Part shown: piece after piece, positions 27,501 to 54,846 of the stretch | Layout of the letters: each line of letters begins with the position of its first letter | Position numbering within the stretch: the first letter of the stretch is position 1 | From: a virus | Length of the DNA stretch: 57,545 bases | Virus record (IMG/VR): IMGVR_UViG_3300024243_000020 | Location: 1-57,545 of that record | Reading direction: 5' to 3' (one strand) | The notes under the pieces: generated by a model | The model's database searches: none | Told to the model about the DNA's origin: nothing | What the model saw: the letters and a program-made list of their open reading frames with translations, nothing else | Translations under genes and position numbers: made by a program

Positions 27501-30500
27501 TACAATCTTTATTTGCATTACCACCATCACATATACCACAATCATCTATGATATTTGATTGACAGTTACAATTTGTTTCAAAATTATCATATGAAGTTAT
27601 ATCTTCAACGTATACATAATTTATTGGAATTGTATCTGGTGATGCGTTACATATTATTAATGGATTTTCAATACTAGAATCAACTAATAATGGATCACAT
27701 GGAATACCATCTCCATCTCCGTCATAATAAAAATAAACAGGATATTCACATAAATCATTGTTTACATGTTCTGGATTTAATACAAAATTACATGCTAATG
27801 GATCGTCACAATATTCATATTCACAACTACCATTATCTGTGTCACATGCTTGACAATAATTAATAGCGTCTGGATCAGTACATCCATAATGTAAACATTG
27901 ATCATGATTTAATACTTCATGTCCTTCATACGTATATACAATAGATATATCTGGTAAATGTAGACAATATGATTGATTTAATTCTAACGTTTGTAATGAA
28001 CCAACCCAACCATTTACTGTATACATTGTGGCTAATCCAAGTGTTGAAATTTGTGTACCAAGTGTTAATAATTGAGGACTAACAAAATATTCTGGATTCA
28101 TTACATCTGCTGTTGCATTTGAACCTGGAAAATAATTAAATGAAATAGTTATAATGTGAGGTTCACCAAATACACACATTCCATTATCTATTGTAGCATT
28201 TGGATCATAATTATTTGCCAATTCGTTTGTACAACCATAACACCAATTTTCAGTCAATCCTGTGTTTCCTCCTATACATCCACACTCACTTATAATGGCT
28301 TCACCGTCACAAATACCAGCGCAATCAAATTCATTTGAAATACAAGAATCATCAACATCATCACAGTTTTGTATATAATTATCTGGTTGTTCACCAGGAC
28401 ATACAAACATTTCAGTTGATGCATCTCCAAAACCATCACCATCAACATCTGCACAATAACGAGTAGTATATACGCAACTATCATTATCATATATTGCAGT
28501 ATCACTATAATTACATGCTCCTACATCAGTACAACCAAAACCATCTTCATTTGAAATGAATTCACAACAACCGTCATCGTTACAAAATTCAAATCCAATT
28601 GGCTCACCATCTCGTTCATTAAATTCAAACAACCCACTACATTCGGCATTATTTATACATGATATGCTATTTGGACATTGATCAAAATATTCACAATTAC
28701 CATCATCGTGTGTTGCATTTTCATTATAGTTCAATGCAAGTGGATCAGTGCAACCAAAAATCACACAACTACCATCATCAACATCAGCATCTGGATTATA
28801 ATTATTAGCTTCAGGATTAGTGCATCCATAAATAGTATATGTACATGAGCCATCATTATCAGTTGCAATTGGATCATAATTATTTGCATTTGGATCAGTA
28901 CATCCATAATATATACAACCAGTGTTAATAGTATAAATATCATCAAACGCTGGATCATAATTATCAGCATCAACTTCCATACAACCATAACAAAAATTCA
29001 CAACCAATCCTGTTGTTCCACCAACACATCCACATTCAGTTTCAAATGCAGAACCATTACATTCACCAGCACAATCTACAACAAATCCATCAAAACAAGT
29101 ATCATCTGGATCGTCACAATTCGATACAAAACCAATAGGTACATCACTTGGACAAAACATTTGTGGATCACCTGCACCATATCCATCACCATCTTCATCA
29201 TAACAATATTCAGCTTGATATGTACAGTTACCACCATCTTGAGTAGCTTCAGGATTATAATTACACGCTGTTTCATCCATACAGCCATATACTAAATATG
29301 TACATGAATCATCATCTATTTCTGCGTATTGATTATAATTCATAGCTAATGGATCAGTACAACCATAACAGAAAGTTTCTGGTAGTGTTGTTAATCCACC
29401 AACACAACCACACTCATTTACAAACGCTTCACCATCACAAATGCCAGCACAATCGTAAGTATTTGATGTGCAAGAGTCATCAACATCACCATTATTCAAT
29501 ATGTAATTCTCTGGTTGTGTGCCAGGGCAATATTCTTGAAAAATATCAGGATTTCCTAATCCATCTCCATCTAAATCTTCATAGTATGTTATTGGATATG
29601 TGCAACAATTATCGCATGGAGATGTATTATCATTATCATAGTTACATGCTGTTTCATCTTGACATCCAACATGCGCACATGTATTAGGTGATAATATATT
29701 TAAATCTGGATATGAATATTGTATCGATGTATCGGGTAATAATAAACAATATGATTTATTTAAATCTAATGTTTGAATATCTCCAGACCACTCACCATTT
29801 GAATAAGCAGATGATTCATTTGTTGTAAATAGGTGTGCATATGTCATTATATCCGAATTTGAAAAATATTGAATATCCAATACATCATTAATTAAATCTG
29901 TACTAACAAATGAATTAAACATAATAGTTTGTATATAAAACATTGCATATTCACAAGTACCATTATTAATAATAGCGGTAGGATCATAATTAATAGCCCC
30001 TGAGTCAGTACATCCATAACACCAAGTCTCAGAAAGTCCAGTTGATCCACCAACACATCCACATTCATTTATAGTAGCATCACCGTTACATGTACCAGTA
30101 CAATCAAATATATTGGAGAAACATTCATCATCTAAATCAACACAATTTAGCACATAGTTATCAGGAACATCATTTGGACAAAATGCTTGAGAATTATTAG
30201 AATCACCTAACCCATCTCCATCATTATCATAACAATATTCAACTTGCATAATACAACCTTGATTTATATTAGCATTAAAATTATAATTACAAGCAAGTGG
30301 ATTCATACATCCATATACTTCTATAATTTCTTCATTTTCATATATACAACTACCATCATCAATAGTCGCACTTGGATTATAATTTAATGCTGATTCATCC
30401 ATACACCCATATATCACAACATTATTATATAACGATGAAACTCCAGCATAAAAATTGGCTTTTGGTGGTAACATATCTGGAGTTATTTCATCTTGACTAT

Positions 30501-34121: not shown

Positions 34122-35246
34122 TTATTCCACAACATCAAATTCAAAATTCGAATCAAATATTTGCTGTTGCCCATTATCATATTTCAATTTATATAATATT
34201 TTATATTTTCTATTTGGGTATAATCCATTCATCCATTGAATGAAATAATTACTAGTTGAATCACAACTCAATTTAGTATAGCTATCTGAAAATGGTACAA
34301 CATTCTCACCCGTTGCAACATCTACGATTGAATATGATCCACTACCCTCTGGAATATATGAACCACTTATTGTATATATACTTCTAGAAAATGTTTTATT
34401 TACATATCTTTCACGAGTACCAATTCTAAATTTAACTTTATCAGTAGTTCTATATTTTGGTTGTAAATTCTTTGCATATATAATATTATCAGCTGATCCA
34501 GTAACATCAATTTGTAACAATGATCCAGTATTATCACCAGTACAAGCAACATGATCATCCCATCTCATTTCAAGTCTAGGTGAATATATTGTGTGTGTAT
34601 TTTTTGAAAAGAAATTCAATTTACCAAATGTTACATCATCTGTTTCTTGACTACCACTATACTTTAATAGTAATCCATAATTAGAAAATGTGCTATTTCG
34701 CCACCCATTAACCATACTAGTAATATCCATTTCAATGTCTGGAGACTCATATGAAAATGATTGAGATGATTCATAGCTTTGAGTTAAATTTAACGCTCCA
34801 CCTGGAGTATCCCACGCCGTATCCAATGTATATACATTATCACTGCTTGTTCTGTTTATCCAACTTACCTTTCGTTTTAAATTTGGTTCTTGCCCAAACT
34901 TTCCAATACCTTCATCCCATGATTGTGTAACTGGATTAGCTGTTAGTGTATATGCACTTGACATATCAGAATTTCCACTTGCTTCATATAATCGCAAAAA
35001 ATAACGTTGATTAGTTACAGCACTACCTGATAATGTGGTAGCATCTGTGACAGCATTATCTATTTCAGTTTTATCAAACTGAAGCAAAACTCGTGTTGGA
35101 TAATCAAATGCTTTATTCCAAAATACTTTTTTTAATTCTAATATTTCATCACCACCAAAGTTTTTTTCTTTTTCTGATTCACCAGTTATATGATTTGATC
35201 CACTTGAAATCCATGAATCTTTAGTTGGATACATTGCATATATCAT
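34122..35246 (-). CDS. Virion protein with DNRLRE/CBM96-like domain (374 aa)
   Basis: The N-terminal ~220 residues fit a DNRLRE-type beta sandwich: YPTKDSWISSGS at the start, NFGGDEILELKK, RVLLQFD, the VTQSWDEG that often follows, and MDITSMVNGW. Such domains act in attachment to polysaccharide or as structural units in extracellular proteins. The C-terminal part has a second beta domain (RKYKILYKLKYDNGQQQIFD). The start overlaps the gp6-like stop by one base (TAATG), indicating translational coupling with the baseplate genes. Confidence 0.62.
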   Translation of the reverse strand: MIYAMYPTKDSWISSGSNHITGESEKEKNFGGDEILELKKVFWNKAFDYPTRVLLQFDKTEIDNAVTDATTLSGSAVTNQRYFLRLYEASGNSDMSSAYTLTANPVTQSWDEGIGKFGQEPNLKRKVSWINRTSSDNVYTLDTAWDTPGGALNLTQSYESSQSFSYESPDIEMDITSMVNGWRNSTFSNYGLLLKYSGSQETDDVTFGKLNFFSKNTHTIYSPRLEMRWDDHVACTGDNTGSLLQIDVTGSADNIIYAKNLQPKYRTTDKVKFRIGTRERYVNKTFSRSIYTISGSYIPEGSGSYSIVDVATGENVVPFSDSYTKLSCDSTSNYFIQWMNGLYPNRKYKILYKLKYDNGQQQIFDSNFEFDVVE

Positions 35247-37156
35247 TATCTAACCACCCCCTTTACATTTTCATTTGATTTTTTAAGTTCAAATGTTGAT
35301 GGTGTTATTGATGGTAAAATCACACCATTAATAGTTGCAGAATTAAAATCATATTGCCATCCATATCCAGCAGTTCCAGCACCACCACTTTGATTATTGA
35401 CATTATAATCAAATAAGCCATTACCAAATATTGGTGTGCCATCTGTGCTATTATAATCTACTTGTTGTGTGACTGTAACATAATTAACTGATCGAACACC
35501 ATCTATTCCAGCTAATTCATATTCTAAATCTTTTATATAAATTGGTTGATGGAATTGCATTTTACTAATATCAAAGAATTCTTTTATTTTATTAATACAT
35601 CTGATTTTAACATCTTTTTTATTTGCTGATCTATGTGAAGTTACATCAAACACCACACCAAAATTAACAACCTTACCATTTGTGATTGATATTTCATCAG
35701 TCAATATTCTAAACTCATTTAAATAATTAGATAAGTTATTAAATATCAAATCTGGAGTATTTGTTAATGCTTTATCTTTATCATATGATAAAGTATATAT
35801 TGCAATTATATGTGAATTATCCGTATCTCGATCTACTATTGTTTTCGCAATATTTCCAAATTTAGCAGGCATTCCCATTATCCGTGCTTCATAATCTTCT
35901 TTAGTCACACATCTATTTTGAGATGCAAAAAATGCTAATGAATTATGTCTTATACTTTCAATATCTTCAGAACCAGCTCCACCAACTGCTGGTGACACAT
36001 TTGTAACTGATATTGAATTATTACCAGAATCATTTGTTATTAAATCACCACTTGGAACATTACTTAAAATACCACCACCGATTCTATATGTCACAGTTAG
36101 TGTAGTAGATGATGGTGCTTCACCCAACGTCATTGATTTCTCATTTAATAATGGATCAATCGTATCATCATAAGAATCTGATTCACCAGGAATGACAATA
36201 CCAACTTGCTCCAATTGTATAAATCCATCATCGATTGATGTATCTGATGGTCTTAGTACACCATTACCAAATATTAAAGATGTATTATCATCATTGTCAA
36301 CCAATACAACAAATCGTTTTTTAGTTTTAACATATTCTAATGTATATGGGATTGGAACATTCACAACATTACCATCAGCATCTATATATGCATTTGCTCT
36401 ACTATAATCAACTGAATAGTGTTTTTCAACTGGTAATTTATCTTGTGCTAAATATTTAGTTTCTCTCCATGTATTATTTTGTGAATCAACTACTGATATA
36501 ATATCAATGACATTCGTATCAGCTAAAGTTATTTTATAAAATTTACTTGGTTGTCCAACTATAAATGTAGCCGTTTTAGTTTCACCAGAAATAGCTTTTA
36601 CCTTTCTCTCAAATGTAAATTGAGATACCACATTAGTATTTGCATCCCACGCAGATTGAACAGGAGCTACATCATTTGATGAACTCATTGTAAAATCCAC
36701 AACCTCAAGTGTTTCAAAAATAATTGAAGAATCTACTGTTGACGTTATTTTCATTCCTTTATCGATTGTTGTTGCTTGAGAATATGTTGGTACAATATTA
36801 TTCATATCCGTTGTATTAGAATCAATAGTTTGTTTAACAGTTAAATCAACATATGCTGGTGTTATTGGCTTATGTCTATAACCCAGCATAGTTGCAATAT
36901 TAATAACATTCTTCTTTTCTCTTGCAAGTGGTGCTAACATTTCTTTATATTGTTGATCTATATAAAATGATAATACGTCACCAACATATGCTGACATTTC
37001 CATTAGCATCATACCTGGTGATGAGTCATTAAAATCTTTATATGAATTTGGGAAATAGGATTTAGCATAATCAATTAATTTAGCTTTTAATCCAATAAAA
37101 TCCTTATTTATATAATCAACATTTGATTGTTTATATTCTCGTTCTGGACTTGGCAT
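35246..37156 (-). CDS. Baseplate wedge protein gp6-like
   Basis: The 636-residue protein starts with the conserved gp6 N-terminus: DYINKDFIGLKAKLIDYAKS, then YFPNSYKDFNDSSPGMMLME and YVGDVLSFYIDQQYKE. A baseplate_J-like C-terminal part follows (NVSPAVGGAGSEDIESIRHN, then DYEARIMGMPAKFGNIAK, LAGIDGVRSVNYV). gp6 dimers build the inner ring of the contractile-tail baseplate wedge. The length equals T4 gp6 within a few percent. The gp25 gene lies 12 bases upstream, the usual arrangement in T4-like phages. Confidence 0.9.
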   Translation of the reverse strand: MPSPEREYKQSNVDYINKDFIGLKAKLIDYAKSYFPNSYKDFNDSSPGMMLMEMSAYVGDVLSFYIDQQYKEMLAPLAREKKNVINIATMLGYRHKPITPAYVDLTVKQTIDSNTTDMNNIVPTYSQATTIDKGMKITSTVDSSIIFETLEVVDFTMSSSNDVAPVQSAWDANTNVVSQFTFERKVKAISGETKTATFIVGQPSKFYKITLADTNVIDIISVVDSQNNTWRETKYLAQDKLPVEKHYSVDYSRANAYIDADGNVVNVPIPYTLEYVKTKKRFVVLVDNDDNTSLIFGNGVLRPSDTSIDDGFIQLEQVGIVIPGESDSYDDTIDPLLNEKSMTLGEAPSSTTLTVTYRIGGGILSNVPSGDLITNDSGNNSISVTNVSPAVGGAGSEDIESIRHNSLAFFASQNRCVTKEDYEARIMGMPAKFGNIAKTIVDRDTDNSHIIAIYTLSYDKDKALTNTPDLIFNNLSNYLNEFRILTDEISITNGKVVNFGVVFDVTSHRSANKKDVKIRCINKIKEFFDISKMQFHQPIYIKDLEYELAGIDGVRSVNYVTVTQQVDYNSTDGTPIFGNGLFDYNVNNQSGGAGTAGYGWQYDFNSATINGVILPSITPSTFELKKSNENVKGVVR

Positions 37157-40900: not shown

Positions 40901-41198
40901 TCATATCTCCCATTAAATCGTATTCTCCATCTTCACCCTCGATTGATATAACAAACGACGAATCTAGCGTATTCTGAACCGTTTTAAGTGTATTAAAAAA
41001 GTATCCAACTTCATCATCAGCTTCAAATGATCCAGTGTCATCTAATTCCTTCAATGCTGAATGTGAAGTTTTAACGACATGATATAATTTTGAATAAATA
41101 TCATTATACACTTCAATTCTACTGGTAGCTCTATTTACACCAACCAATAATATGATATTAAAACTTACAGATAATATTAAAATTATTTCAATAATCAT
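40881..41198 (-). CDS. Small single-span membrane protein (105 aa)
   Basis: An N-terminal membrane segment (IIEIILILSVSFNIILLVGV) is followed by a soluble part with FEADDEVGYFFNTLKTVQNT. This last motif recurs in short proteins of T4-like marine phages; that recollection comes from memory and was not searched. It overlaps the HD-like gene by 4 bases and the sigma gene by 20. Orientation and role are not known. Confidence 0.65.
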   Translation of the reverse strand: MIIEIILILSVSFNIILLVGVNRATSRIEVYNDIYSKLYHVVKTSHSALKELDDTGSFEADDEVGYFFNTLKTVQNTLDSSFVISIEGEDGEYDLMGDMSGKKEK

Positions 41199-41809
41199 TT
41201 AGAATTCCTCTTGGATATGAAAATCGATATTATGTTACTAACAAACGATACCACTGCTAATGAGTTTTTATCCATACACTTATATATTTTATTAACATCA
41301 GTTGAATTACACAATGATATAGCTTCCCACGCATCTTCAGATAATTTAATATTAAATAAATTATTTAAGATAAACAATGAACGATCTGTTATTTCATATC
41401 CAAATGATACATCCTCATTAATTTTATACCCCTTACCATATTTTTGTTTAACCCAAACATCATCTTCAACTTGATAGTATTCATTATTCAAATCACCGAT
41501 TTTTCCAATATTATGAAATAAACACACCAACATCAAATCTGAGTTACTATATGTTACTTTCACATTAAAGAATTTTAAAATAGATGTTAATTTCATTGCA
41601 ACTTTAGCAGTCAACATCATATGACTTAACAATCCACCTGGTCTACTATTATAAAACTCTGTTTTAATAGAGGCTGGTGCTTCAACTAATCGTTGATCAA
41701 AATGTGCTATCATTGCTTTTATACTAATTAATTGATCACCCTCAAACATACTATCAATTGCGTTGATTAATGATTTATATTCTTCGATAATTTCCTCTGG
41801 CTTTACCAT
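41195..41809 (-). CDS. HD-like hydrolase with HN in place of HD
   Basis: The 204-residue protein matches the HD fold layout: RPGGLLSHMMLTAKVAMKL with His63 as the first ligand, then LFHNIGKIGD at 98-107. In active HD phosphohydrolases the second motif is H-D, while here it is His99-Asn100. The codon is AAT on the minus strand and is read clearly. The missing Asp suggests a catalytically weak or ligand-sensing protein. A nucleotide or (p)ppGpp-like substrate is possible for the family but cannot be read from this sequence. Confidence 0.7.
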   Translation of the reverse strand: MVKPEEIIEEYKSLINAIDSMFEGDQLISIKAMIAHFDQRLVEAPASIKTEFYNSRPGGLLSHMMLTAKVAMKLTSILKFFNVKVTYSNSDLMLVCLFHNIGKIGDLNNEYYQVEDDVWVKQKYGKGYKINEDVSFGYEITDRSLFILNNLFNIKLSEDAWEAISLCNSTDVNKIYKCMDKNSLAVVSFVSNIISIFISKRNSK

Positions 41810-42174: not shown

Positions 42175-42195
42175 GTGATGATTTTTTATCATCAC
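42175..42195 (-). other. Hairpin at tmRNA 3' flank
   Basis: An 8-bp perfect stem GTGATGAT/ATCATCAC with a 5-base loop lies 8 bases after the tmRNA CCA. There is no U tract after it, so it may guide 3' processing or exonuclease stalling and not terminate transcription. Confidence 0.5.
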
Positions 42196-42202
42196 GTTTA
42201 AT

Positions 42203-42572
42203 TGGTGGAGGTGGGGGTATCGAAACCCCGTCCTGAATACTCTACATATATAGTCGTTCACAAGTTTTGATTATTTTTTTTTGCAACCTATGCGAAAAAA
42301 TTTAACTAAAAAAACGCATTTTTTTTAATGTTGTTGTACATCCAAAATAATAAAACAAACAATCCATTATATTTCGCCAAATGAACATGGCTATCAGATT
42401 AATGTCCCTTAATGCATATCTGAGTCAAACATTAAGAGTGCTGTTTATACGTATTACTACGCTACAGCGTGATAGTTATAATCGTTTCCAATTACTTTTG
42501 TTGTGATTGTTAAGTCAATCAATCTACTTGCACTACATATTTCAAAAATCCAGTCGAAACCAAGTCACCCCC
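42203..42572 (-). ncRNA. ssrA: Phage tmRNA (ssrA)
   Basis: The 5' end GGGGGTGACTTGGTTTCGAC pairs with the 3' end ACCTCC-A-CCA through a 6-bp acceptor stem (GGGGGU/ACCUCC). The tmRNA T-arm GGACGGGGTTTCGATACCCC precedes it. The mRNA-like part at 42487-42489 begins with GGA and reads GNDYNYHAVA, followed by TAG TAA (42454-42489). A Gly resume codon is the Bacteroidetes habit (their tags begin GE...). The tag ends AVA, where host tags end LAA. The total length of 370 nucleotides is normal for a one-piece tmRNA. It rescues stalled ribosomes; the altered tag could change which protease takes the product. Confidence 0.93.
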
Positions 42573-43167: not shown

Positions 43168-43737
43168 TTAATCAGCAATTATTATCCAATCGTTCAATAA
43201 ATATTGAGATGCCTTTTTATATTTTATTACTTTTGTCTGCACACCATCTGATATTGTTATCTTTTCATTTGGTTTATATTTCGTCTTCACTGTTCTCATA
43301 ATTGTCTTAATTCGTCGATCATACATGGTTTTACCATCCAAGTGATCTATCTCATGTTGAATTGCAATACATTCTAAAGTCTTGTGGTGATTGTTTGGCA
43401 TTACTTCAAATACCATATCATCATAATTATCTGATGATACTGTTACTTTTGAAAATCTTTCAGTTTTAATTTTTTTATTTTTAAATGATAAACATGATTC
43501 TAAATATATATATTTTCCAGATGATTCAATAATTTCTGGATTTATAAAATATAATGGTTCATCGATATTTAAAACACATACTCGTTTATTTATTCCAATT
43601 TGATTTGCCGCTAATGCCACTCCAGTTTTATGTAATTTTAATTCATTTAATAATTTAGCCGATATTTCTTCACCTTCAATTATATCATTGACTTTTTCAC
43701 ATTCTTTTGATAATCTATATTTGTCTGTTACTATCAT
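43168..43737 (-). CDS. def: Peptide deformylase
   Basis: The 189-residue protein has all three deformylase motifs: GVALAANQIG (39-48), ESCLS (80-84, metal-ligand Cys82; bacterial enzymes usually have EGCLS) and QHEIDH (127-132, His128, Glu129, His132). It removes the formyl group from new proteins. Phage versions are known, mainly from marine T4-like phages, and are usually shorter at the C-terminus; this one keeps a further ~45 residues. It overlaps the Zn-finger gene upstream by 4 bases. Confidence 0.92.
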   Translation of the reverse strand: MIVTDKYRLSKECEKVNDIIEGEEISAKLLNELKLHKTGVALAANQIGINKRVCVLNIDEPLYFINPEIIESSGKYIYLESCLSFKNKKIKTERFSKVTVSSDNYDDMVFEVMPNNHHKTLECIAIQHEIDHLDGKTMYDRRIKTIMRTVKTKYKPNEKITISDGVQTKVIKYKKASQYLLNDWIIIAD

Positions 43738-47471: not shown

Positions 47472-48509
47472 TTATCTTTTTCGTTTAATTTTAAAACCAA
47501 TCACATTATCAGCACCATCCTCAGTCGTATCAAATCCAATTCGATTTTGATCATCGGATGATCCACCCACATCATGTAATTTAGCTTGATATGATTTTGC
47601 TGATAATCCTTTTCCACTTCGCATTTTATTTATGCGAGCTTTTACTGCATCATAACCCTTTTCATAAATTTTAAATGCAACTAACAACTCACGCATGTGA
47701 GCAAATGTCCAATCTTTTGTATCCTTTACAATATTGTCCAAATCTCGTTTTTTAATTTTTGGTATTTTACTTCTTACAAAAATACGTCTGTCTGCATCTG
47801 ATGGGAAATCTATATTTAATATCACATCAAATCTACCTGGTCTGTTTATTATTTTATCAGGCAACAATTCAGGATTATTCGTGGTTGCTATGAAAATCAT
47901 ATTACTTGATGCACTATTACTATCTAAAAAGTCCATCAATGCATCTTCCCAACCATCATGAAATACTTTCTCAATATCTTCAGCAGTCACTATGAATGGC
48001 CTATTTGGTTCAATTTCTCTAAAAGCAGCTATTGCAATCTTTGCTTGCTCACCCCATTTAAATACAACTCCACCTTCTGCTATGAATGCATTTACTATTT
48101 CTAATATGGCAACTGTTTTTCCAGTTCCAGGTGGACCCCATAATAAAAATCCACGATTGTGATCTTCATTCATTTCTAAATATTTGTCACGAAGATTAAA
48201 AAATTCAAAGCATTCTGATTTTAAAATGTTTATCTTTGAATCTTTTAGTTGTAAAATGTTTTTAGTCTTACTGGATATTTTAGAAAAATAAGCATTACCA
48301 GTTTGATGATTAAATATACTTTCATAATATCCAGGACTTAATCTATCTACTGAATCTTCTATTGGATAATATTTACCATATCCATCTACTTGATATTTAC
48401 GTAATTTTTTATCATTATTAGTTTTCTCTTCAGTGTTCGATGGATATGCTACCTCTGGCTCGTCTAGGTTAAACAACTCCTCAAGTAATCTCACTCTATG
48501 TGCTTTCAT
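47472..48509 (-). CDS. AAA+ ATPase (345 aa)
   Basis: A single AAA module follows a ~110-residue N-terminal part. Walker A is GPPGTGKT (125-132). The Walker B position is PFIVTAEDIE. A second region of homology IFIATTNNPELLPDKIINRP with GRFD supplies the arginine finger. The Walker B reads T-A-E-D where D-E-x-D is usual, so ATP hydrolysis may be altered. This resembles AAA proteins encoded by large phages, which remodel protein complexes. The partner may be the 151-residue protein encoded upstream. Confidence 0.85.
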   Translation of the reverse strand: MKAHRVRLLEELFNLDEPEVAYPSNTEEKTNNDKKLRKYQVDGYGKYYPIEDSVDRLSPGYYESIFNHQTGNAYFSKISSKTKNILQLKDSKINILKSECFEFFNLRDKYLEMNEDHNRGFLLWGPPGTGKTVAILEIVNAFIAEGGVVFKWGEQAKIAIAAFREIEPNRPFIVTAEDIEKVFHDGWEDALMDFLDSNSASSNMIFIATTNNPELLPDKIINRPGRFDVILNIDFPSDADRRIFVRSKIPKIKKRDLDNIVKDTKDWTFAHMRELLVAFKIYEKGYDAVKARINKMRSGKGLSAKSYQAKLHDVGGSSDDQNRIGFDTTEDGADNVIGFKIKRKR

Positions 48510-51713: not shown

Positions 51714-51857
51714 TTAAAACTTATTTCTTCTCACTTGTTTTAATATCTGTTTTAATTCTTTTTTATTTAACTTAGAAAATCTATAAGAAAATAATGGTGT
51801 ATCAGTATACCAAAATGGTACTGTCCAACCTTTTACTTTTTTTTGCCACCACTTCAT
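51714..51857 (-). CDS. Small basic protein (47 aa)
   Basis: The start overlaps the preceding family gene by 4 bases (ATGA). The product begins MKKWWQKKVKGWTVPFWYTD and ends KELKQILKQVRRNKF. It is Trp- and Lys-rich with no known domain. The 4-base overlap in the same chain of genes supports translation. Confidence 0.6.
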   Translation of the reverse strand: MKWWQKKVKGWTVPFWYTDTPLFSYRFSKLNKKELKQILKQVRRNKF

Positions 51858-52108
51858 AATATATACGCTATATATTCATTTTCATTTATAATTTTAAATG
51901 CACTAGTATCATATGTAAAATGTTCCCAAGCTTTCTTTTCATTCTTTAACGCAAGTTGAGCATCTTTGTATGATTCAAACGGTATTATATCACCATCTTC
52001 ACTATAGTTAATATCATACCAATAATAACGAGGATTTCTATCATTAGGATTATGCATATCATTACTTAATATTTCATTATGATTAGTATCTATAATATAA
52101 TATTTCAT
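51854..52108 (-). CDS. Small-protein family member B1
   Basis: The 84-residue protein has MKYYIIDTNHNEILS, a variable stretch RYYWYDINYSEDGDI, then IPFESYKDAQLALKNEKKAW and the tail INENEYIAYIL. It shares the strand, F-E-S-Y-K-D-A helix start and terminal acidic-hydrophobic segment with the next three genes, which are linked by ATGA overlaps. Function is unknown. Confidence 0.8.
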   Translation of the reverse strand: MKYYIIDTNHNEILSNDMHNPNDRNPRYYWYDINYSEDGDIIPFESYKDAQLALKNEKKAWEHFTYDTSAFKIINENEYIAYIL

Positions 52109-52371
52109 AATATATACGCTATTAATTCATTTTCATCTACTACCTTTAACTCATATAGCATATCATCGTTACCCTCATTAAGGTACTCCAGTTCTATTTT
52201 CATTGCGGTTTCTGCTTCTTCATATGAGTCAAATGGCTCTACTGGATTATCTTCAGATAGATCACCCCAAAGGTATCCTATATCTGCATTTATTCCATTA
52301 TACAACACACTACTCATTATAGTATTTTCATATGGCACGGCGCCAGTATCTACTACATAATAACGTTTCAT
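52105..52371 (-). CDS. Small-protein family member B2
   Basis: The 88-residue protein has MKRYYVVDTGAVPYENTI, then VEPFDSYEEAETAMKIELEY and VVDENELIAYIL. It is close to B1 and B4 in the helix and tail, while the region after the first strand is unrelated. ATGA overlaps connect it to both neighbours. The isoelectric character is acidic. Confidence 0.8.
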   Translation of the reverse strand: MKRYYVVDTGAVPYENTIMSSVLYNGINADIGYLWGDLSEDNPVEPFDSYEEAETAMKIELEYLNEGNDDMLYELKVVDENELIAYIL

Positions 52372-52622
52372 AATAAAAAAGCCACCAATTCAGTTTCTGA
52401 TAATACTTTCAAGTTATTTGAACTAGAAATTGTTTTTAATCTAATATCAATTTCATATTGTGCGTCTTGTCTTGACTCATATTGTTTAGCATATTTCGTA
52501 TTCTCTGTCCAATATTCGTTCCAACCATTTTTAGACTTTCCAATCAAATCACGCTTATACCAAATCGGTACTTTATTACGATCACCTATATATTGAAAAT
52601 ATGTTATAATATAATATTTCAT
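52368..52622 (-). CDS. Small-protein family member B3
   Basis: The 84-residue protein has MKYYIITYFQYIGD, then AKQYESRQDAQYEIDIRLKT and VLSETELVAFLL. It is more basic than B1, B2 and B4, with a longer insertion RDLIGKSKNGWNEYW between strand and helix. It is overlapped by 4 bases on both sides. Function unknown. Confidence 0.8.
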   Translation of the reverse strand: MKYYIITYFQYIGDRNKVPIWYKRDLIGKSKNGWNEYWTENTKYAKQYESRQDAQYEIDIRLKTISSSNNLKVLSETELVAFLL

Positions 52623-52861
52623 AATATATACGGTATTAATTCATTCTCTGTTAATATCATAAATGATCTTGGTACACTATTTTTCCAATATTCATTTTCA
52701 ATCTTTAATGCTGATTGTGCGTCACTATACGATTGAAATGGTGTAACATCATCAATTCGCTCAATATCATACCACGTATATCCGTCGTTAATATAGCCGT
52801 TATTAAATATTTCATTGCTTACTATTTGTAAATCATTTAAATCTATAATATAATATTTCAT
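52619..52861 (-). CDS. Small-protein family member B4
   Basis: The 80-residue protein has MKYYIIDLNDLQIVSNEIFN, then VTPFQSYSDAQSALKIENEY and ILTENELIPYIL. It is closest to B1. The start lies 3 bases after the tRNA-Phe 3' end, so a processed transcript would begin almost at this ATG. Confidence 0.8.
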   Translation of the reverse strand: MKYYIIDLNDLQIVSNEIFNNGYINDGYTWYDIERIDDVTPFQSYSDAQSALKIENEYWKNSVPRSFMILTENELIPYIL

Positions 52862-52863
52862 TG

Positions 52864-52936
52864 TGGTGCGAGTTGGGATCGAACCAACATATCTTGGGCT
52901 TCACTCAAGTACCTTAACCACATCGGACTCCGCACC
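52864..52936 (-). tRNA. tRNA-Phe(GAA)
   Basis: Acceptor GGTGCGG/TCGCACC, anticodon loop GTGAAGC with anticodon GAA (one mismatch at the base of the loop stem) and T-loop TTCGATC are present. A73 is followed by CA. It divides two runs of small-family genes. Confidence 0.85.
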
Positions 52937-52946
52937 TTATTTTTTT

Positions 52947-53171
52947 TCATAATAACATTGCAATTAATTCTAATTCAGATACCACTATATCACAATTATC
53001 AGTATACTCATCATCATGGTTGAATTCATTTGCATCTTCTCTCGTTTCAAATATCATAGCTCTTGATATATGTGTTGTTAAATTATTAGTAGCATCAAGT
53101 TCACTACCACGTCTAATGTATCGAACATATCTACCATCTGAATGATCTTTGCATATAATATAATATTTCAT
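52947..53171 (-). CDS. Small-protein family member B5
   Basis: The 74-residue protein has MKYYIICKDHSDGR, then ISRAMIFETREDANEFNHDD and VVSELELIAMLL. The central motif is F-E-T-R-E-D-A. Thr-His-Ile-Ser before the motif parallels T-x-(N/H)-(V/I)-(N/S/K)-x-A in A4, A5 and B6. Its start overlaps the next upstream gene by 4 bases. Confidence 0.78.
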   Translation of the reverse strand: MKYYIICKDHSDGRYVRYIRRGSELDATNNLTTHISRAMIFETREDANEFNHDDEYTDNCDIVVSELELIAMLL

Positions 53172-53434
53172 AATTCTGTAATAACTTTTAGTGCTTCATA
53201 TTCTTGTTCTGTCATTTTAATAATCGTACACATATATTGACGCTCAAGATCATAAAATTTTTCTTTAGTATTAAATATCTTTCTATAATATTTAACGCCA
53301 GATATACCCGAATCACAATATACAACAGCATCTTTAACTCGTGTTGTTAATCTTGCTGTACGATCATCATCATCGATTGATATATACACTGCTGAACTAT
53401 CATATGGTCTATCGAATAATGCTAAATAAATCAT
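53168..53434 (-). CDS. Small-protein family member B6
   Basis: The 88-residue protein has MIYLALFDRPYDSSAVYISI, then TTRVKDAVVYCDSG. A longer middle (YYRKIFNTKEKFYDLERQYM) carries the F-N-T-K-E motif without the usual D-A. The tail is KMTEQEYEALKVITEL. It is a divergent member placed by context, ATGA overlaps on both sides and the terminal Leu. Confidence 0.68.
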   Translation of the reverse strand: MIYLALFDRPYDSSAVYISIDDDDRTARLTTRVKDAVVYCDSGISGVKYYRKIFNTKEKFYDLERQYMCTIIKMTEQEYEALKVITEL

Positions 53435-53643
53435 AACATTAACGCCACTAATTCTTCTTCTTTTAATTTAACAACAATCTCTTCACTAGCCATTATTGCA
53501 TATGCAACGTCTTCGGTATCACATATAAACGCATTATTAATATTTTTTGTATATCCCATTTCATCTTTATGTACATATTCACCAACACAACCATTTACTG
53601 TATCAGTACTTACAATTACATATTTTACAATTCGTTCTGACAT
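53431..53643 (-). CDS. Small-protein family member B7
   Basis: The 70-residue protein has MSERIVKYVIVSTDTVNG, then NINNAFICDTEDVAYAIMAS and VVKLKEEELVALML. The motif is shortened (FICDTEDVA). This is the smallest member. The next upstream gene ends 4 bases before its ATG. Function unknown. Confidence 0.74.
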   Translation of the reverse strand: MSERIVKYVIVSTDTVNGCVGEYVHKDEMGYTKNINNAFICDTEDVAYAIMASEEIVVKLKEEELVALML

Positions 53644-53647
53644 GATA

Positions 53648-53884
53648 TTATAACATTTTTATAATATACTCAGCTTCAGTTAATATAAAAATCTTCTCAT
53701 CATCACCAATACCATGATTATCAATATTTTTCTCAGCATCAATTACTGAATCAAATACTTTAGCGTTATCAATGTCTGGTGTATAATCATCATAACAATC
53801 CACATATTCGCTAAAACTTTCATCACTTTTACATATATTTTGAATTACAATATATGATTTCTTTTTATTTTTTTTGCTTTGCAT
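53648..53884 (-). CDS. Small-protein family member B8
   Basis: The 78-residue protein starts MQSKKNKKKSYIVIQNI, with a Lys-rich extension before the first strand. It then has IDNAKVFDSVIDAEKNIDNH and ILTEAEYIIKML. It overlaps the basic protein gene at 53865-54089 by 20 bases. All three family landmarks are clear. Confidence 0.78.
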   Translation of the reverse strand: MQSKKNKKKSYIVIQNICKSDESFSEYVDCYDDYTPDIDNAKVFDSVIDAEKNIDNHGIGDDEKIFILTEAEYIIKML

Positions 53885-54089
53885 TCTTCTTTTTTGAAGA
53901 TGTATTATTTTTCTTCTTGTTCACCTGCTCGATAATTAACGCAGTTAATTTGGCTCGTTCTTTTTTTGCACCTTTATCTTTTCCAAACATCCCGTCTAGT
54001 CGTTTCAACTGCTGAAGTGGACTTCGTTTCGATCTTGTGCTTTCTCGCATAATAGCCTCATCTTGCTTTCTTTTTTTATTTGCGTTCAT
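53865..54089 (-). CDS. Highly basic small protein (74 aa)
   Basis: ATG 54089 is preferred over 54095 because it is closer to the GGTTTGG purine stretch; both are possible. The product is Lys/Arg-rich (MNANKKRKQDEA, KRLDGMFGKDKGAKKERAKL) with a KK-rich tail. It is likely disordered with a helical centre. Nucleic-acid binding is suggested by charge only. It overlaps its upstream gene by 14 bases. Confidence 0.55.
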   Translation of the reverse strand: MNANKKRKQDEAIMRESTRSKRSPLQQLKRLDGMFGKDKGAKKERAKLTALIIEQVNKKKNNTSSKKKNAKQKK

Positions 54090-54480
54090 TTCCAAACCTT
54101 TTATTTAATCGTTTCCATGTTTTGTGATCTCGATCATCTTTCTTTAATAATCTTTCTGCATTTATTTTTTCTGTTCGCTCACGTTGTTTTTTATTTCTTT
54201 CCATTCTATTTTCAAATTCTTCATCAGTTTCTTCTCGATTACCATACACCATCAGTGATCTAGTATCTTCATACCTATGCCATTCAGTTGTAACTTCAAT
54301 ATTAGTATAGCCAAGTTTTTTACCAGCAACATCTATTTCATCTAAATAAGATTTTATTTTATCAACTGATCCATCGATAAGTTCAACAGATACATATATG
54401 AAATTATCATTTTCATTTTTAAGTATGCCACTTAAATTTTCTCGTAACATTTTTTTCTTATCTACTTTATTTTTTTTCAT
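54076..54480 (-). CDS. Phage small protein with RxETDEEFExR motif (134 aa)
   Basis: A beta-rich middle (NFIYVSVELIDGSVDKIKSY) leads to VYGNREETDEEFENRMERNK and a long basic helix ending KTWKRLNKRFG. The motif (G-x-R-x-E-T-D-E-E-F-E-x-R) also occurs in the 112-residue protein at 56606-56944, so the two are paralogues. This helix-capping motif is frequent in unnamed phage proteins. Function unknown. Confidence 0.68.
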   Translation of the reverse strand: MKKNKVDKKKMLRENLSGILKNENDNFIYVSVELIDGSVDKIKSYLDEIDVAGKKLGYTNIEVTTEWHRYEDTRSLMVYGNREETDEEFENRMERNKKQRERTEKINAERLLKKDDRDHKTWKRLNKRFGNERK

Positions 54481-54494
54481 TTTTTCTTCTATTT

Positions 54495-54581
54495 TGAGGG
54501 ATGAGTCAGATTCGAACTGACGTGAGAATTTCTTCTAATGGCTTTGCAAACCACCCTATTCAACCACTCTAGCACCATCCC
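54495..54581 (-). tRNA. Class II tRNA with Cys anticodon (GCA)
   Basis: Acceptor GGGATGG/TCATCCC, anticodon arm GTGGT-TTGCAAA-GCCAT with anticodon GCA and T-arm GTCAG-TTCGAAT-CTGAC are present. A 16-base variable region (TAGAAGAAATTCTCAC) forms an AGAA/TTCT stem with a GAAA loop. T73 is the normal tRNA-Cys discriminator, but tRNA-Cys is normally class I with a short variable loop. CA follows T73. Confidence 0.8.
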
Positions 54582-54591
54582 ATTGTTTATT

Positions 54592-54846
54592 TCATAACTT
54601 TAATATAACAGCTTTTTCATCTGATATTGATCTTATTTCTAATACATATCTACCAGCCACATCATATAACCAATCTGCATCAGTTGATATCGGCCATAAC
54701 ATTTTTATACATTTCATTGCAAAATATCTTGATTTAAATAGTTTTATATTACGATCTAATACATCTATCCAATAGTCACAATGTCCATCGTTTCCTGTAT
54801 AATAAGCTTCGTCGTGATTGCACTTATCATAAATATAATATTTCAA
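54592..54846 (-). CDS. Small-protein family member B9
   Basis: The 84-residue protein has MKYYIYDKCNHDEAYYTG, then IKLFKSRYFAMKCIKMLWPI and a tail SISDEKAVILKL. The helix start is F-K-S-R-Y-F-A, a variant of the F-x-S-x-x-D-A motif, and the protein has more basic and aromatic residues than the others. It lies apart from B1-B8, on the far side of tRNA-Cys. Confidence 0.7.
   Translation of the reverse strand: MKYYIYDKCNHDEAYYTGNDGHCDYWIDVLDRNIKLFKSRYFAMKCIKMLWPISTDADWLYDVAGRYVLEIRSISDEKAVILKL

Follow-up and report, generated by a model that had tools for sequence, protein, structure and literature searches.

The window analyzed here comprises an entire IMG/VR record (57,545 bases), itself a fragment, and encodes an intact, covarying phage tmRNA. 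The tag peptide of this RNA ends in Ala-x-Ala, and the comparison of related sequences shows that the phage group as such conserves this changed end. The phage tmRNA is probably functional, rescuing ribosomes with its own selected Ala-x-Ala tag and altering the handoff of tagged products to the protease. Phage tmRNAs are present in hundreds of genomes, and the literature consulted offers only proposals for their role. A C-terminal degron that is changed uniformly and under selection makes one question testable: do phages want rescue without degradation? The virus may be changing the fate of tagged proteins.

Gene and RNA structure

The one-piece tmRNA gene (ssrA-like) is located at 42203..42572 (-), has a length of 370 nt and is complete with its tag. 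ARAGORN reported the tag as GNDYNYHAVA followed by two stops, with the coding part at RNA positions 84-119. The Rfam family RF00023, whose gathering score is 47, matched with 105.2 bits (E 4.3e-40); the match covers model positions 1-374 and is not truncated, with the downstream part aligned at low posterior probability. Both programs agree on 42572-42203 (-), and the complete phage-encoded one-piece tmRNA described in the sequence-only reading is thereby borne out. The folding energy of the RNA is 3.8 SD lower than that of dinucleotide shuffles.

The 5' acceptor strand GGGGGUG (42566..42572, (-)) forms 7/7 pairs with CACCUCC at 42207-42213 and keeps G3.U70. The 3' acceptor strand is followed by the discriminator A and an encoded CCA (42203..42213, (-)). 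The T arm GGGGUUUCGAUACCCC (42214..42229, (-)) shows a single-base deletion relative to the RF00023 model; it is 16 nt long, with the 6-nt loop UUCGAU, versus 17 nt in 11 aligned relatives. A PK1-region hairpin, UGAUUG/CAAUCA (42504..42521, (-)), is located upstream of the tag. Directly 3' of the tmRNA follows an 8-bp inverted repeat, GUGAUGAU-AAAAA-AUCAUCAC (42175..42195, no strand assigned), without a U-run, which is possibly a processing or terminator hairpin.

Genomic neighborhood

A peptide deformylase gene (43168..43737, (-); Pfam PF01327, E 1.5e-26; PHROG 2890) lies about 0.6 kb upstream of the tmRNA on the same strand. The sequence-only reading had placed the tmRNA in one region with the deformylase and the tRNAs; the tRNAs of the window (about ten) lie at 49-57.5 kb. 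One tRNA, at 52864-52936, was identified by Rfam (38 bits) without an ARAGORN call. Adjacent small minus-strand ORFs at 51854-54846, several with an MKYYI start and an EL-xx-LL type end, apparently represent a tandemly duplicated family.

Searches with the baseplate protein and the deformylase yielded 160 viral loci. In relatives the tmRNA is found downstream of the deformylase on the same strand, followed by a beta-barrel-like gene. The conserved neighbor downstream of the tmRNA in the window is an HD-type phosphohydrolase-like gene (41195..41809, (-)), syntenic with a 'phosphohydrolase' gene of Flavobacterium phage immuto. The phage group is marked by a baseplate wedge (gp6-like) protein (35246..37156, (-); PHROG 219, E 7e-23; tblastn). 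By this protein the closest named records are Microcystis phage Mel-JY01, the uncultured phage LR756508 and immuto, with 31-36% identity in tblastn. Other large minus-strand genes encode a gp25-like baseplate protein, an SbcC-like nuclease subunit and a DNA primase. The order HD phosphohydrolase - small protein - sigma-like - gp5 - gp25 - gp6, in which the labels sigma-like and gp5 are our own reading without a family match, is common to the window and immuto.

An AAA+ ATPase (Pfam PF00004, E 4e-14) is encoded near the tmRNA at 47472-48509; no ClpP partner was found for it. Searches of the window and of 15 related contigs, all of them fragments, gave neither SmpB nor ClpP. Host SmpB and host alanyl-tRNA synthetase would therefore have to serve the phage tmRNA, unless such genes are located outside the fragments.

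Related tmRNAs and selection on the tag

The tmRNAs of relatives were identified by RF00023 searches of whole related records and by a DNA pattern scan. Eleven further tmRNAs were found in the phage group besides that of the window. RNAalifold on the twelve phage tmRNAs gave 47 consensus pairs, 19 of them with compensatory change, in an alignment that is not independent of the tmRNA model, as its members were partly found with it. In all twelve the 7 acceptor pairs are intact and G3.U70 is invariant; acceptor columns 5 and 6 are altered on both sides in relatives, and the closing pairs of the PK1-region hairpin are compensatory (G-C, C-G, U-A). The T loop GGCAGUA replaces UUCGANU in the tmRNAs of L169, L174 and L175. 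It was considered as a novelty and dropped, as the pattern matched more than 120 viral stretches; GGCAGUA-type T loops occur in alphaproteobacterial tmRNA. DNA searches of 50,697 phage records, with the tmRNA region as query and with just the tmRNA, gave no match.

The tag frame of the window with its tandem stops TAG TAA occupies 42454..42489 (-), as determined by ARAGORN and from the sequence, and consists of the codons GGA AAC GAT TAT AAC TAT CAC GCT GTA GCG. The tags of the relatives are GNEYQYMAVA (L162 and L220, with identical tag codons), GNEYQYMAAA (L167, L216 and L217), GEYQYMAAA (L174), DNNYSYMAAA (L218), GNYNTYNVAYA (L165), GNYTNYNVAYA (L170), GNYNTQVAYA (L169) and DNYNTQIAYA (L219). 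With L162 and L220 counted once and the window included, the distinct tag sequences number eleven, and 11/11 have an Ala-x-Ala end (AVA, AAA or AYA). The relatives conserve both this end and the stop codons, as expected of the tag frame that had been proposed from the window alone. Comparison of the tags within groups of equal length gave a pS of 0.56 and a pN of 0.16. The Ala codon at -3 shows 43 pairwise synonymous and 0 nonsynonymous differences, with GCA, GCC, GCG and GCT all in use, and the Ala codon at -1 shows 39 and 0; both residues are invariant across 3-4 different Ala codons. Since pS is well above pN and the Ala codons vary only synonymously, the tag is a translated peptide kept by purifying selection.

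The compensatory changes, the invariant G3.U70 and the selection on the tags show this to be a working gene. In roughly half of the examined close relatives RF00023 detected no tmRNA in the whole record, and several of these have the same genes; the tmRNA is therefore dispensable. This patchy presence, together with the use of the host ssrA as a known phage integration site (PMC9004378), would fit a passenger gene that was taken from the host and kept without function. Such an origin without function is considered extremely improbable, since the compensatory changes and the excess of pS over pN indicate maintained function; in addition, no integrase was recognized among the window proteins scanned, which are part of the full set. 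We have counted the missing copies, and the T arm that is one nucleotide short, as points that may weigh against a functional tmRNA with its own selected tag.

Tag ends in Bacteroidota and the likely host

RF00023 was run over 198 genomes spread across Bacteroidota and identified a tmRNA in 189. For the comparison of tags 119 loci were taken, 80 of them drawn and the rest from earlier searches. ARAGORN gave tags for 116 loci, of which 113 are credible; three calls (DQVDKLNSVP, GETQQAIT... and GTVKIDL...) were treated as misreads. The credible tags end in LAA (71), MAA (41) or FAA (1), and an Ala-x-Ala end occurs in 0/113. The earlier statement that AVA stands in place of LAA is thus confirmed, the HAVA end of the window being unlike 113/113 credible Bacteroidota tags. 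The phage tags keep a host-like N-terminal half, (G or D)N..Y.Y. A Gly start, which had been taken to be as in Bacteroidetes, is compatible with the 116 ARAGORN calls (G 52) but is not diagnostic, because A (44) and D (20) are also frequent. The pattern GENNYALAA matches almost only Bacteroidota (119/120 loci); as 9 of the 119 loci taken for comparison came from genomes first picked by this pattern, GENNYALAA is over-counted among them.

A Bacteroidota host was first assumed on the basis of the tag and the synteny with immuto, and was doubted after Shine-Dalgarno-like motifs had been counted. With start codons set mechanically at the first ATG, which lowers the counts in all groups, the window has such motifs ahead of 50% of its genes, with a background of 4.5%, and nine relatives with a tmRNA have them ahead of 56%, with a background of 6%; the corresponding values are 4% for 537 Bacteroidota genes and 5% and 9% for the Flavobacteriia phages immuto and phi38:1. 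Shine-Dalgarno-type motifs are used by a few lineages placed in Bacteroidota. The simplest reading of these counts is a host outside typical Bacteroidia. The affinity to Bacteroidetes is weakened accordingly, and so is the view of a tag that departs from the one of its own host, since Shine-Dalgarno use points away from Bacteroidia.

These counts would fit an ordinary rescue supplement, in which the phage tag would match the host in its type of end and add rescue capacity late in infection. The length, the start and the Y.Y core of the tag are otherwise host-like. Canonical phage tags also exist, for example ANSNVAFALAA in Streptomyces phage Jay2Jay. We regard this explanation as unlikely, because no Ala-x-Ala end was found among the 113 tags spread across the phylum and because the LAA rule is also broken in phage G (...LQVA) and in phi38:1. 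That the tag of the host may itself end in Ala-x-Ala is nevertheless counted against the preferred reading of a selected phage tag with altered protease handoff.

Predicted function of the tag

Under the preferred reading, the phage tmRNA would be charged by the host alanyl-tRNA synthetase via G3.U70, would work with host SmpB and would free ribosomes that stall during infection, adding its own ten-residue tag to unfinished proteins. Selection would keep the Ala-x-Ala end instead of the Leu/Met-Ala-Ala degron of the sampled Bacteroidota. Most likely, ribosomes would be freed as usual, and the host protease of the ClpXP type would receive the tagged products less efficiently or in a different way. 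In ssrA tags the three terminal residues are the critical ones, and changes of LAA slow or redirect degradation (PMC9382460). As ClpX of E. coli depends critically on the terminal LAA (PMC9382460), Ala in place of Leu or Met at -3 is expected to weaken the handoff to ClpXP while leaving rescue intact.

The tag could instead have switched its specificity, so that products are not protected and are read by another protease, for example host Lon, comparable to the NYAFA tags of Mollicutes. A C-terminus that is conserved and not drifting fits recognition by something, and the AYA sub-group (..VAYA) resembles the NYAFA ends that are read by Lon (PMC9382460). The window itself ends in HAVA, without an aromatic residue in the last three positions, only a sub-group of relatives ends in VAYA or IAYA, and neither the window nor 15 related contigs yielded a phage ClpP. 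On balance a switch of this kind is held to be rather unlikely.

Reduced tmRNA-derived RNAs

One related record contains an RNA of 121 nt (L086:2911-3028, = L176; IMGVR_UViG_3300030419_003143, 29775-29895) with both tRNA-like halves and no recognizable tag. It is located about 500 bases downstream of the deformylase, which is the usual tmRNA site of the phage group. Similar RNAs were searched for with a pattern in which the tmRNA 5' end and 3' end are only 40-70 bases apart. The first scan gave 44 viral stretches (L604-L646), corresponding to 34 distinct sequences with at least 6/7 acceptor and 5/5 T-stem pairs, part of which are fixed by the pattern. A second scan, with position 70 left free and a tmRNA-like D region demanded, gave 40 stretches, all within the first set and 40/40 with U70. 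As U70 is present in all of them with position 70 left free, alanine identity is kept in these tRNA-like-domain-only RNAs, which are widespread in viral contigs. The record LR756508 carries both a full tmRNA and an RNA of this form (L212, LR756508.1 414804-414915).

The 2025 tmRNA database paper names mycobacteriophage DS6A as the one phage example of such an RNA, which inhibits the endogenous tmRNA in E. coli (PMC11915505). With the equivalent RNA of L086 at the same site downstream of the deformylase, it raises the question of interference, in which the phage tmRNA would mainly compete for SmpB and alanyl-tRNA synthetase and lower host trans-translation, the tag being secondary. For the window this is judged very unlikely, as the window and ten distinct relatives keep the full tag frame under purifying selection, which would be needless for a pure decoy. 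A broader proposal is offered tentatively and is somewhat improbable: the Ala-x-Ala tag of the group would uncouple rescue from host degron proteolysis or reroute it, while in some members the gene would have shrunk to its tRNA-like domain, with an RNA product that would block trans-translation in the host. These would be two alternative takeovers of one pathway at one site. To judge from the tRNA-like-domain-only RNAs, viruses may commonly interfere with trans-translation, DS6A being no isolated case.

Long tags are probable in other viral tmRNAs. In the tmRNA L210 (LR756508.1 92434-92880) a reading by eye gave a tag of probably 36 residues, GVNNADYESAGFTAEDFAQMDGESLYHGSERKPAAV; the ARAGORN tag GRRKPLSW, from another short frame, was treated as a misread. 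The tmRNAs of another viral lineage (L221-L225 and L173) have long tags as well, which probably read DNDRVGNGEVIPAYVDSYQPTYAYA and DTDSAPFIGAESAYQPTYAFAA.

Comparison with known systems

In comparison with the bacterial one-piece tmRNA/ssrA (RF00023), the window RNA shares the full-length model, G3.U70, helix 2, the PK1-region hairpin and a tag with stop. It differs in its Ala-x-Ala end, where the bacterial tag has Leu/Met-Ala-Ala, and in its T arm, which is present but shortened by 1 nt.

The Mollicute NYAFA tags read by Lon are alike in that their C-terminus departs from the LAA rule, there together with a protease switch (PMC9382460). They are cellular, longer and belong to bacteria that have no active ClpXP; the YAFA motif does not occur in the window tag. 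The DS6A RNA is likewise a tmRNA-derived phage RNA, and its form recurs in L086, but it consists of the tRNA-like domain only, whereas the window RNA keeps the mRNA-like domain and the tag.

Phage tmRNAs and non-LAA phage tags are already known. A tmRNA was reported for 402/18,146 phage genomes (PMC9004378), and tmRNAs are known in mycobacteriophages and phage G (PMC4131195), in huge phages (PMC7162821) and in Cellulophaga phage Calle (PMC8776804). The window resembles these systems (Bacillus phage G, mycobacteriophages Bxz1 and Wildcat, Cellulophaga phages phi38:1 and Calle, Melnitz and pelagimyophages, huge phages) in its phage-borne gene, often accompanied by tRNAs; the tmRNA of Melnitz is two-piece, that of the window one-piece. 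Like the window tag, those of phage G (AKLNITNNELQVA) and phi38:1 (most likely frame GNNTNAVNAQIEANMEAVNAILNLEVAVGV, with the end AVGV and a later ARAGORN start in the same frame) have no LAA end. What is new are the short, uniform and selected Ala-x-Ala ends in a phage group, for which no earlier description was found in the literature, the tmRNA database lying outside that search. The window belongs to a different phage group from the known phage tmRNAs, and the changed end of its group, short and uniform, is kept in all eleven distinct tags.
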